This document shows, one piece after another, positions 3,001 through 33,108 of a DNA stretch of 64,000 nt. The translations under genes and the position numbers were made by a program. The stretch spans positions 124,001 through 188,000 of the forward strand of contig NZ_QJRC01000074.1 of assembly GCF_013393325.1 (NCBI RefSeq), given 5' to 3'. Origin of the DNA: Pseudomonas hunanensis. Its GTDB lineage: Bacteria; Pseudomonadota; Gammaproteobacteria; Pseudomonadales; Pseudomonadaceae. The notes beneath the pieces are model-generated. The model was given only the letters and a program-made list of their open reading frames with translations, did no database searches and was not told the origin of the DNA. Positions within the stretch are counted from its first letter, which is position 1; each line of letters starts with the position of its first letter.

Positions 3001-6000
3001 GTTGCGCGGAGCCACATGCTCGCCCTGCGACTGCGTCTGATCGATATCCGGGAGGCGTTTGCGGTCGAGCTTGCCACTTGGCGTCATGGGCATGTGCTCG
3101 AGCAGCATCAGGTAGGTCGGCACCATGTAATCCGGCAAGCCGGCCTTCAGAGACTGCTTCAGCGTTGCCCGCAGCTCCGCCTGATCCGCGCCCTGGTCAA
3201 CCGCGACCACATAGCCGCACAGCTGCTTGACGCCGGCGTGGTCGACAACGATCACTGCAGCCTGGCGAACCTGTGGGTGCGCCTGCAAGTGCTGCTCGAT
3301 TTCCCCCAGCTCGATGCGGAAACCGCGAACTTTCACCTGATGGTCGGCCCGACCACGGTAGGCAAGTTCACCCTGCTCATCGAAGTAACCCAAATCGCCG
3401 GTGCGGTACAAGCGAGCCCCCGCTGTTTCGGCCAGCGGGTCAGGGATGAAGCGCTCCGCCGTCAACGACGGGCGCTGGTGATAACAGCGTGCCAGGCAGC
3501 CGTCACCACCGATGTACAACTCACCCGGCACGCCAATCGGTGTAGGCAACAGGCCGTCGTCCAAGGCACGCAGGGTACGCCCGGCCAACGCGCGGCCAAT
3601 CGGTACACCGCTATGTGCCGCAGGCACCTGCGCAAGCCGTGAGCAATCGTACGTGGTCGCCACCACGGTGGCCTCGGTAGGGCCGTAGGTGTTGAGCAGA
3701 CGCACCTGCGCCGGCCCATCCTCCAGCCAGGCCTGCAACCCGTCCAGGGCCACCGCCTCACCCCCCACATGAATCTGCTTCAGCTGGCCATAGGCAGCTG
3801 CAGCGCGACGGTCCAGCGCCAACAAGCGCCAGTAGGCTGCCGGCAAGTCAGCCACCGTAATGCCGTGGCGGATGACCTGCGTGCTGAATGTGTCTGTGTC
3901 CCACAGCTGCTGATCGCGCATCACCACGCAGGCGCCCCGTGACAATGGCGGGAAGAACTGCTCGATGAACCCGTCAAAACTGAACGTGGCGAACTGTAGC
4001 ACCCGGTCATCCGGCGTCAGTCGCGAATAACCACTGGCAACTTCACAGAAGACTGACAGTGCCTGGTGAGCAATGGCCACCCCTTTCGGCATGCCCGTGG
4101 AGCCGGAGGTGTAGATGACATAGGCCAGGCTGTCGAGCGAGACCTCACATGACAGCGGCTGCTCACTGCAGTCTTGCAGCCAGTCCTCACCTGACTGTAG
4201 CTCGATACATGGCAACTCAGCAGGGACCGGCATGCGCGCCATCGCCTCGGCGTCACCCAGCAGCAGGCCGATGCCACTGTCCTCGATCAGGTAGGTCAGG
4301 CGGTCCTGCGGGTAATCTGGATCCAGCGGGACGTATGCCGCCCCGGCTTTGTGGATGGCAATCAAGGCCACGGCCAGCGCCAACCCACGCTCGGCGGCAA
4401 CCCCAACCAGGCTGTTGGCGGTAACACCGTGCGCAGTCAGCAGATGCGCCAGACGATTGGTGCGCAGGTCCAACTCTCGGTAAGTCAGCTGTTGCTCGCC
4501 GAACACCAGCGCTGTCGCACCGGGGCGCTCTCGGGCCTGCAACTGGAACAACTGGTGAGCGCACAGGCCCGACGGGCTAACTGCCTCGCTTTGGTTCCAG
4601 TCATGCAGCAAAAGTTGGCGCTCTGCATCTCCCAGCATCGGCAGCTCGCCGATCGCCACCGAGGCATCATTTACCAGCGCCCGCAGCAGGTTGCCGAAGT
4701 GCTCGGCCAAACGCTGGATAGCCTCGTCGTCCCAACTGCCGCGGTTGTGACTGTACTGAATGGCCAAGGTGTCACTTAAGGTGGCCGCCAGGGTCAGCGG
4801 GTAGTTGGTCTGCTCCAGGTTGGCCACCGGACCAAAGCGCAAGCCATCGGGTGCACCTTCCTGCAAGGCCTGGGAAACCGGGTAGTTCTCGAACACCAGC
4901 AAGCTGTCGAACAGCGCTTCGCCACCCAAGCCGGCCCAGCGTTGTACCTCATTCAACGGGGTATGCTCGAAGTCACGCAAGGCCAGGTTGCAGGCTTGCA
5001 CCTGGGCAACCCATTCGGCAACGGTCTGTTCGCTGCGCGGCGCACCGACGACTGGGAGGGTATTGATGAACAGGCCGATGTGTTCTTCCACCCCTGGCAG
5101 ATCCGCCGGACGCCCAGCCACAGTGGCGCCAAAGCAAACGGCAGATTGACCGGTATAGCGTTGCAGCAGCAGCAACCAGGCTGATTGCACCAAGGTATTG
5201 ACGGTGACCCGGTTGGCACGTGCAAAATTTTCGATGCGCTGGGTCGTCGAGTGGTCGAACAACTGATAGTGCTCACCCTGGCCTGACTGCGGCGCAGTGC
5301 TTCGGCGTACTACCTGAGCCAGCCGGGTCGACTCCTCCAGCGGTGCCAGTTGGTCCTTCCAGAACGCTTCGGCTGCTGCCGCGTCCTGGCGTTGGAGCCA
5401 GGCGATATAGTCACGATAAGGTGCGGCCGGCGCCGTTGCTTGCTGCCCGGCGTAATGCTGCAACACCTCGCCCAGCAGGCGCGAAGTGCTCCAGCCATCC
5501 ATCAGGATGTGATGGTTGGTATAGATCAGGTGGTGGCTGTCATCTGCCGTGCGCACCAGGGTCAGCCGCTGCAACGGAACCTGGTCCAGCGCGAAGCCGG
5601 TTTGTCGGTCGCTCTCGGCCAGACGTTGCAGCTGCTCCGACGCTGGCTGACCACGCCAATCGTGCTCGGCCAAGGCCTGCACGACCTGCTTGTGTACCAC
5701 TTGCACAGCCTGGTCGAGCTCTCCCTGCCAGATAAAGCCACTGCGCAGGATCGCGTGCTTATCCACCGCCGCCTGCCAGGCCTGGCGGAAGCGTTCCACG
5801 TCCAGCCCCTGAACATCCACGCGCAACTGGTTGATGTAGTCGCCGGACTGCTGTTCGTAAAGCGTATGGAACAACATGCCCTGCTGCATCGGCGACAGCG
5901 GGTACACATCGGCTATCTGCTCGGCCTTTATCGGCAGGTTGTCCAGTTGCGCCTGGGTAAGGTCAGCCAACGGGAAGTCCGAAGGCGTCACGCCACGGTG

Positions 6001-31793: not shown

Positions 31794-31889
31794 CTATAAT
31801 CGATCTATAGTCGACCTATAATTGCCTATAAACCACGCCTCTCATACGGCCTATAATAGCTCTATAATCACTCTATAATTGACTATAAA
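31794..31889 (+). repeat. Eight-copy CTATAAT-like heptamer array upstream of an ATPase gene
   Basis: Heptamers start at 31794, 31805, 31816, 31826 and again at 31851, 31862, 31873, 31883. Five are CTATAAT, one is CTATAGT, and the last of each block is CTATAAA. Both blocks share the spacing 11, 11, 10, and the second block is offset by exactly 57 bases, while the bases between heptamers differ. Near-helical spacing suggests a protein-binding array on one face of the DNA. Every copy also contains a near-perfect -10 hexamer (TATAAT). The array ends 18 bases before the ATG at 31908, so it probably holds the promoter and operator of that gene. Confidence 0.9.
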
Positions 31890-31907
31890 GCTGTATGGGA
31901 GGCCGTA

Positions 31908-33065
31908 ATGCCGGAAACCGTCTATCACCGCCCAGCGCTAGCATCGCGGCTGTCGAAATTGATCATGCAAGTTGCCGTGGGCAGTGCAGCAAGCTCGGGG
32001 GTGTTTCTGGCGGCCCCCAGGCGTACCGGTAAATCCACCTTTGCACGCGAAGACCTTCGACCCGCTCTCGAAGCTGCGCAGGCAATCGTGCTGTACGCCG
32101 ACCTCTGGAAAGACCTGACCAAAGACCCAGGCCAAGTCATCGTGGAAACCGTGCGTGAGGCGCTCGGGCGTAACGAAGGCTTCATTACGCGGCTGGCAAA
32201 GTCCACTGGCATGGAGAAGGTAACCGTAGGTGGCCTGAATTTCAGCGTGGACAAGATCGGGCTGGGGCAAGATGTCGATCTCACCAGTGCGCTGGTCGCG
32301 CTCTCCGACGAATCACGCAAGATCATCGTGCTGATCATCGACGAGGCGCAACATGCAATCACGACCGACCAGGGAATAGCAGCCTTGTTCGCCCTCAAAG
32401 CGGCCCGGGACGAACTCAACAGCTCGAAGCACCATGGGTTGCGCATCGTTTGCACGGGCTCGAACCGGGACAAACTGGCCATGCTGCGCAATAGCAAAGA
32501 TCAGGCGTTCTTCGGCGCTGCGATGGTGCAGTTCCCAACGCTGGATCAGGGCTTCATCGACTGGCTTTGCGCCAACATCGATCTCCCCTGCGCACTCGAC
32601 CCGGTAGAGGTGTTCCAACTGTTCAAAGAAAGCGGCTACCGCCCTGAGTTACTGGGCGCGGCAGCGGATGAAATACGCTTCGACTTCAGCATCGAGCCCG
32701 AAGCCGTACCGGCACGGTTCCGAGAGCTTGTTCAGGCGCAAGCCAATGACCTTAACGCGAACCTGAAAAAGGTGATCCACAGCCTCACTCCGATTCAATC
32801 CGCCGTTCTACGCGTCATGTGCGTAAAGGGTAATGAATACGCACCGTTTGAGGCCCCAACCCTGGCACTGTACGCCAAAGCGATGGAACGGGCGGGTGTG
32901 CAGGAAAGCGAAATCAAGGCCGAGGTGCCGGGGGTTCAGCAAGCGCTCATCGCCTTGCAGGACAAGCATCTGGTGTGGAGGGCATCACGGGGCGTATACG
33001 CGGTAGATGAGCAGGTAATCGTCGATCTGGTCCGCGCTGATGGCTTGCTGGAAGGGCTTGGCTGA
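31908..33065 (+). CDS. Solitary AAA/ORC-STAND-like ATPase
   Basis: 385-residue protein with Walker A APRRTGKST (residues 36-44), Walker B IIVLIIDEAQHA (about 138-150), and a sensor-like TGSNRDKL near 185. The C-terminal 120 residues look like a winged-helix region (SLTPIQSAVLRVMCVKG, then an alternation of short helices). This layout recalls archaeal-type ATPase_2/ORC-like proteins that bind DNA; I do not recognise a characterised family member. ATG 31908 follows GGGAGG. It stands alone between pvdE and the convergent lpxO and is preceded by the heptamer array. Its function is unknown; self-regulation by binding the array is inferred. Replication, defence or mobile-element control are all possible. 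Confidence 0.8.
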   Translation: MPETVYHRPALASRLSKLIMQVAVGSAASSGVFLAAPRRTGKSTFAREDLRPALEAAQAIVLYADLWKDLTKDPGQVIVETVREALGRNEGFITRLAKSTGMEKVTVGGLNFSVDKIGLGQDVDLTSALVALSDESRKIIVLIIDEAQHAITTDQGIAALFALKAARDELNSSKHHGLRIVCTGSNRDKLAMLRNSKDQAFFGAAMVQFPTLDQGFIDWLCANIDLPCALDPVEVFQLFKESGYRPELLGAAADEIRFDFSIEPEAVPARFRELVQAQANDLNANLKKVIHSLTPIQSAVLRVMCVKGNEYAPFEAPTLALYAKAMERAGVQESEIKAEVPGVQQALIALQDKHLVWRASRGVYAVDEQVIVDLVRADGLLEGLG

Positions 33066-33076
33066 AGGTTCCTGTA

Positions 33077-33108
33077 CGTAGAGCGCCCCATCAATCTGGC
33101 GCTCTACG
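33077..33108. terminator. Hairpin between convergent ATPase and lpxO genes
   Basis: CGTAGAGCGCC (33077-33087) pairs perfectly with GGCGCTCTACG (33098-33108) around a 10-base loop. It lies between the two convergent stops. There is no strong T-run on either side. Confidence 0.55.

Follow-up and report, generated by a model that had tools for sequence, protein, structure and literature searches.

A phased heptamer array before the gene of a solitary ATPase with a predicted ORC-type fold suggests a self-regulating gene module in Pseudomonas

In a 64,000-nucleotide stretch of Pseudomonas hunanensis DNA (contig NZ_QJRC01000074.1, hereafter the window), two blocks of four phased TATAAT-like heptamers stand directly upstream of the gene of a solitary ATPase for which an ORC-type fold is predicted. 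Comparison of homologous loci shows that the array belongs to the ATPase gene, and the two together suggest an undescribed self-regulating gene module.

Results

Block 1 of the array (31794..31832, forward strand) reads CTATAAT-CTATAGT-CTATAAT-CTATAAA, with heptamers starting at 31794, 31805, 31816 and 31826, and block 2 (31851..31889, forward strand) consists of three copies of CTATAAT followed by CTATAAA, starting at 31851, 31862, 31873 and 31883. Both blocks share the spacing 11-11-10, block 2 is offset by 57 bases from block 1, and the last heptamer ends at 31889, leaving 18 bases before the ATG at 31908. A 38-base one-block pattern with at most three mismatches matched the window exactly twice, at the two array blocks, and never in 100 shuffles; across the 6.0-Mb genome it again matched these two blocks only (control, 0). 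All seven genome matches to a looser two-unit pattern lie inside the array (reversed-pattern control, 1), as do all five copies of CTATAAT in the window (0.56 expected). The bases between units are not the same in the two blocks, and the window holds no array 3' of the ATPase gene. Coordinates and pattern scans thus agree with the 2x4 array, including its spacing, offset and distance to the start codon, that had been noticed in a first reading from the letters of this DNA (the sequence-only reading).

The gene (31908..33065, forward strand) encodes a solitary AAA+ ATPase of 385 amino acids with a predicted ORC fold. Walker A (residues 35-44, AAPRRTGKST; 32010..32039, forward strand) is invariant in 20 aligned homologues, as are D145 and E146 of Walker B (residues 140-146, IVLIIDE; 32325..32345, forward strand) and the RPE motif of the lid. 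The C-terminal winged-helix region (residues ~293-366; 32784..33005, forward strand) is taken from the predicted model, with limits set by eye. The Walker motifs and winged-helix-like C-terminus described earlier are accordingly found, the former in the open reading frame and the latter in the model. The protein passes the gathering cut-off of AAA_22 (PF13401; 28.2 bits against 27), which all 20 aligned homologues match at E ≤ 0.01. It falls short of that of ATPase_2 (PF01637; 18.4 against 33.2), for which 14 of the 20 members give weak matches, and scores under the Pfam cut-off for AAA_14. No NCBIfam model matches the ATPase, and PADLOC returned mad8 alone, weakly (E 0.001, 16.6 bits, residues 123-191). 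Among Pfam, NCBIfam and PADLOC matches at E ≤ 1 there was no ORC/Cdc6 family model, and a phmmer search of PDB sequences at E ≤ 1 returned no ORC.

The structure, predicted from 63 sequences (mean pLDDT 87.2, pTM 0.83; residues 102-112 below 50), combines an AAA+ domain, a lid and a C-terminal winged helix in one chain, as in ORC/Cdc6 initiators. Its best match was Aeropyrum pernix ORC2 (1w5s_A; Z 17.1, rmsd 5.5, 337 residues, 13% identity, model range 1-383), followed over the whole chain by Sulfolobus solfataricus Cdc6/Orc1 (Z 15.6), SSO1545 (Z 15.6), Orc1 with DNA (Z 15.2) and PABY2304 (Z 15.0), and over part of the chain by MuB (Z 13.0) and TnsC (Z 12.8); matches within 1 Z rank as tied, and a common fold does not show function. 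The fold of the ATPase is thus predicted to be that of ORC/Cdc6 and archaeal ATPases, and these whole-chain matches bear out the earlier description of the protein as ORC/STAND-like.

To place the array in its family, 124 homologues, including that of the window, were condensed at 80% identity into 56 representatives. Upstream of these, TATAR units averaged 2.86 per 150 bp, versus 0.55 in shuffles, and units 9-12 bp apart occurred in 35 of the 56 (1% of shuffles). All 35 fall among the 44 representatives at ≥46% identity, nine of which lack a phased pair; the 12 more distant representatives contribute none. Unit spacings were concentrated at 10 bp (55), 11 bp (19), 20 bp (9) and 22 bp (3), with about 0.1-0.2 expected per value, and the sharp 10-11 bp steps place the units on one face of the helix. 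Control counts before 555 other ORFs of these loci gave a mean of 0.09 units and no phased pair. The sequence-only reading had named homologues lacking any array as an outcome that would speak against it; the upstream regions instead carry arrays in the proportion given, with a minority lacking one. Since phasing is conserved while the surroundings diverge between homologues, the heptamers appear selected rather than recently copied, as that reading had proposed.

No clear array was seen in L047, L071 (judged on 178 bases upstream) and L112 among the representatives, or in L048, L049 and L101 outside them. L047, L048, L049 and L101 form a clade at 68-70% identity whose upstream bases are alike within the clade, perhaps as another control signal. 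On the tree, array absence requires three changes, one nested among array-bearing Pseudomonas, when only L047, L048, L049, L071 and L112 are labelled, by eye, as lacking an array and rows with some TATA units and no phased pair (such as L062, L083, L093 and L111) are scored as array-bearing. Within the genus, all seven genomes with a close (≥61%) intact ATPase (G000, G057, G145, G010, G080, G006 and G070) have strict arrays solely upstream of that gene, so that the protein, if it binds such arrays, would have one strict genomic target, namely itself. A class-wide array scan matched 23 of 369 genomes, but is uninformative outside the home genus because the reversed-pattern control matches there at least as often.

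In more distant subfamilies, the repeats at this position differ: TATAGT/TATACT/TATAAT is found in the 41% clade, AATTATGG/CATAAA in the 32% clade and CATAATT in further distant homologues; some plasmid copies have inverted repeats without an ATAAT-type core upstream, as read by eye. Across 26 distant representatives, reduced from 60, ATAAT/ATTAT occurred 61 times in the 100 bp before the start, versus 20.8 ± 4.0 in 200 shuffles (maximum 32), and five of the 26 had none. On these sequence comparisons, the repeat motif seems to drift along with the protein, as expected of an operator read by its own product.

The resemblance of the heptamers to -10 hexamers had also raised the possibility of stacked promoters. 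In the close subfamily, stacked sigma70 promoters are rejected as the whole story: the 80 loci scanned (L033-L112) were kept without de-duplication, and in none of the 71 with an upstream TATART does a -35 reach five of six matches at 16-18 bp. The hexamers there are therefore something other than ordinary stacked promoters. The promoter scan of the window gave one weak site (TTTACG and TATAGT, spaced by 16; 9 of 12 matches, 0.6 expected), the best -35 having four of six matches. The idea stands in part for the 41% clade, where TTGACN-N16-TATACT is present in 15 of 15 loci with TATA-like units flanking TATACT on both sides; there, repeats and sigma70 promoter are one.

Block 2 is enclosed by an inverted repeat with a left arm at 31837..31850 (GCCTCTCATACGGC, forward strand) and a right arm at 31890..31903 (GCTGTATGGGAGGC, forward strand), the latter including a Shine-Dalgarno-like GGGAGG. 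The arms form a 14-pair stem with two G-U pairs (flank duplex z -5.5 versus shuffles). The RNA stem is strong in the window, L033, L035 and L040, from differing sequences, and thus in part of the nearest Pseudomonas lineages only. Over 74 loci the mean z was only -0.61, with p < 0.05 in nine (mononucleotide shuffles, related loci included), so the stem is at most lineage-specific and not family-wide. Rfam gave no match at gathering score in the six sources scanned. The promoter and terminator scan of the window called no terminator, including at a 10-bp inverted repeat without a T run right behind the ATPase stop (33078-33107; GTAGAGCGCC/GGCGCTCTAC).

Within the genus, 47 of 149 genomes have an ATPase match (a count that includes the genome of the window and some fragments), as do 18 of 369 class genomes at E ≤ 1e-10 (again with the genome of the window counted) and 117 of 72,556 plasmid records. 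The reading as a viral or phage gene was rejected: 50,697 phage records gave no match, and of 130 pattern stretches in viral contigs none was a relative. A 28-base array pattern is present in three viral contigs.

The surroundings of the gene vary. For 10 kb around it, the window can be aligned at 89% with a Pseudomonas contig (L034). We take the neighbours of the gene in the window to be a pvdE-like ABC exporter and an aspartyl/asparaginyl-hydroxylase-like gene. An empty site at this pvdE/lpxO-like junction was not found, the exporter end adjoining the hydroxylase gene only in L001-L003 among the relatives examined. For the neighbourhood comparison we used the best 80 of 416 relatives among genome contigs. 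An all-against-all comparison of the 892 ORFs around these 80 loci recovered the ATPase cluster in 73 loci and nothing else that is widespread; among the top 14 clusters, the next comprised 15, 14 and 7 loci (two-component, ABC-transporter and LysR-type by look), followed by shared synteny of 4-5 loci. A co-transferred partner gene was rejected on this ground, and the ATPase is indeed lone, as first described. Plasmid copies likewise sit among unrelated genes, for example metabolic ones, and four of 14 ATPase plasmids inspected have their own typed replicon. One copy, on the Polaromonas plasmid pPNAP01 (L255), is flanked by pglW and pglX of a BREX-2 locus.

When 16 loci were compared, homology between pairs at different sites started ~113-137 bp before the ATG, at the first array unit, and ended at about the stop codon. 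In other different-site pairs it started at block 2 or near the start codon, a few pairs matched further elsewhere, and L054 was homologous only from residue 107 onward. The conserved entity, as judged from these alignments, is the array plus the ORF, ~1.27 kb; such limits do not prove a mobile unit, because neutral flanks would have drifted. Comparison of G141 with G070 (L158 versus L165) showed flanks kept, the ATPase missing, a junction at a short 4-base AAGG repeat and one array block left, which looks like ATPase loss at that repeat. In G020 (L166, ~5000-5290), an array is followed directly by a frame of 81 codons whose match to the ATPase is confined to the winged-helix end (residues 302-384). 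Horizontal transfer was not accepted from the tree: it shows four host changes, yet its starred branches force only one. The MAG contig L051 bears the label Klebsiella pneumoniae, possibly in error; the tree places its ATPase with those of betaproteobacteria.

Arrays also occur without the gene. In the genus, strict arrays were found at 24 loci in 21 of 149 genomes (control, 0); eight adjoin an ATPase gene (seven intact, one truncated) and 16, in 13 genomes including G141, do not. At 15 of these orphan arrays, the flanking ~5 kb in each direction (one flank being shorter at two contig starts) contained no ATPase at E ≤ 0.01; for the remaining one (G113), 1.5 kb was inspected. Ten of the 13 orphan-array genomes have no ATPase match at E ≤ 1e-3, and another factor may therefore exploit or maintain arrays of this kind. 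Orphan arrays (L150-L157, L159-L164; L289-L296) are located on Pseudomonas islands, transposon-like DNA and plasmids and share the grammar of the ATPase arrays. Several have a common right flank (ATTCTAGAG), and a related group of four combines an invariant array with variable bases nearby. An orphan-array query matched 14 plasmid records, all from Pseudomonas. In all eight inspected, the next annotated gene is convergent (two integrases, a DUF6088 gene, an IS3 transposase and four hypotheticals), and one orphan-array plasmid record annotates "Tn4652, cointegrate resolution protein T" nearby. Orphan arrays could be relics, sites of another binder or ATPase recruitment sites.

Discussion

We regard it as reasonably probable, from the sequence patterns and the predicted model, that the array is an operator read by the ATPase: as an ATP-dependent oligomer, the protein would attach to the phased units by means of its winged helix and so govern the promoter of its own gene. 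The C-terminal winged helix would contact the phased TATAAT-like units, cooperatively and with one ATPase subunit per helical turn, and the ATPase would control its own expression, probably through repression, with its ATP state relieving or setting that repression. The array would then make up, with the gene, one autoregulated module of 1.27 kb, which occurs on plasmids as well as at chromosomal sites unrelated to one another. A family-wide placement of phased direct repeats directly before the protein's own gene (35/56 representatives; 0/555 control ORFs) is what a StbA-like autoregulator arrangement requires, and the self-regulation proposed in the sequence-only reading would fit this pattern. 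That the ATPase itself binds the array, that it does so cooperatively and with what sign it regulates are points that we infer.

The array might instead be bound by a host protein, either RNA polymerase at a decoy cluster of -10-like sites or a silencer of the H-NS/MvaT type, with the ATPase simply the controlled gene. The units are indeed -10 hexamers, and orphan arrays occur in genomes without an ATPase match, two of them (L150 and L152) near genes recognised by eye as H-NS/MvaT-like and one near an annotated MvaT/MvaU gene; MvaT-type silencers favour TpA steps and TpA-rich DNA. We nevertheless consider such a binder unlikely, given that the arrays follow one gene family across beta- and gammaproteobacteria and not 555 neighbour ORFs, that the repeats differ between ATPase subfamilies and that no -35 of at least five matches was found in 71 close loci. 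An ORC-like initiator or plasmid-stability protein acting on an iteron or centromere, with the array as its origin or segregation site, appears quite unlikely. The predicted ORC/Cdc6 fold, the relatives in 117 of 72,556 plasmid records, a 5-kb plasmid with an orphan array ~250 bp from rep and the resemblance of two period-11 repeat sets at a promoter to the stbDRs of R388, as the excerpted text describes them (PMC3098194), would agree with this role. However, the window copy lies in a chromosome-like contig with no sustained GC-skew switch there (a weak negative), four of 14 inspected ATPase plasmids have their own typed replicon, and copies lie between metabolic genes. The replication-related and defence roles entertained at the outset found no positive evidence past the fold and the plasmid copies.

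A reading in which the array serves for recombination or attachment and a mobile element carries the ATPase as cargo strikes us as highly improbable. It draws on homology between sites that is often limited to about array plus ORF, and on some orphan arrays in transposon or island DNA near tyrosine-recombinase genes; yet no array follows the ATPase in the window, neither flank duplication nor an empty site came to light, homology limits at 72-84% identity equally follow from ordinary drift of non-functional flanks, and the G141 versus G070 difference has the look of gene loss. A broader version of the autoregulatory model, in which the solitary ORC-fold ATPase forms a phased oligomer on its own array as a bacterial counterpart of ORC and origin repeats, and stray arrays on transposons, islands and plasmids exploit it as recruitment or maintenance sites, we would call very doubtful.

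The autoregulatory ATPase with its operator can be set beside several known systems. Archaeal Orc1/Cdc6 proteins have ORB repeats beside their own gene. The present family shares with them the adjoining repeats and, in the predicted model, a whole-chain AAA+ and winged-helix fold (1w5s, Z 17.1; 2v1u, Z 15.2), but differs in its low identity (13-16%), its short TATAAT units in place of ORBs, its match to AAA_22 and to no ORC model, and the lack of any origin sign. STAND proteins carry a GxP motif in the lid, at the place of the invariant RPE found here. ATPase_2/STAND-like ATPases (SSO1545, 2fna; PABY2304, 2qen) are also close in predicted fold (Z 15.6 and 15.0) and in the weak PF01637 matches of 14 of 20 members, although the PF01637 score of the present protein (18.4) stays under the cut-off of 33.2; our literature search found no paper on SSO1545/PABY2304-type proteins for an array comparison. 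MuB and TnsC filament ATPases share the AAA+ core (8xvb, Z 13.0 over 229 residues; 9g0f, Z 12.8 over 261 residues; both entries are DNA complexes), whereas no transposase or partner gene recurs near the present family and the present protein has a predicted C-terminal winged helix.

The nearest arrangement that we found in print, judged from the excerpted text, is StbA of plasmid R388, where two sets of five direct repeats with an 11-bp period surround the promoter of the binder's own operon and StbA shifts DNA with these stbDRs (PMC3098194). According to the same excerpts, however, R388 has 9-bp TTGCATCAT units and a role in plasmid segregation and conjugation, and there DNA binding falls to StbA and the Walker ATPase motifs are those of StbB, its partner in the operon (PMC3098194). 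Neither the present array nor the ATPase family was described in the literature we searched, in which coverage of subscription journals was thin.

The ATPase family, which occurs in betaproteobacteria, gammaproteobacteria and a few plasmids of alphaproteobacteria, thus joins a predicted origin-protein fold to a built-in phased DNA element. As a one-gene system, it allows DNA recognition by an ORC-like ATPase to be tested in bacteria, and its subfamilies with differing repeats provide natural swaps. A separate, testable question concerns the orphan arrays on mobile DNA of Pseudomonas, namely which reader they serve.
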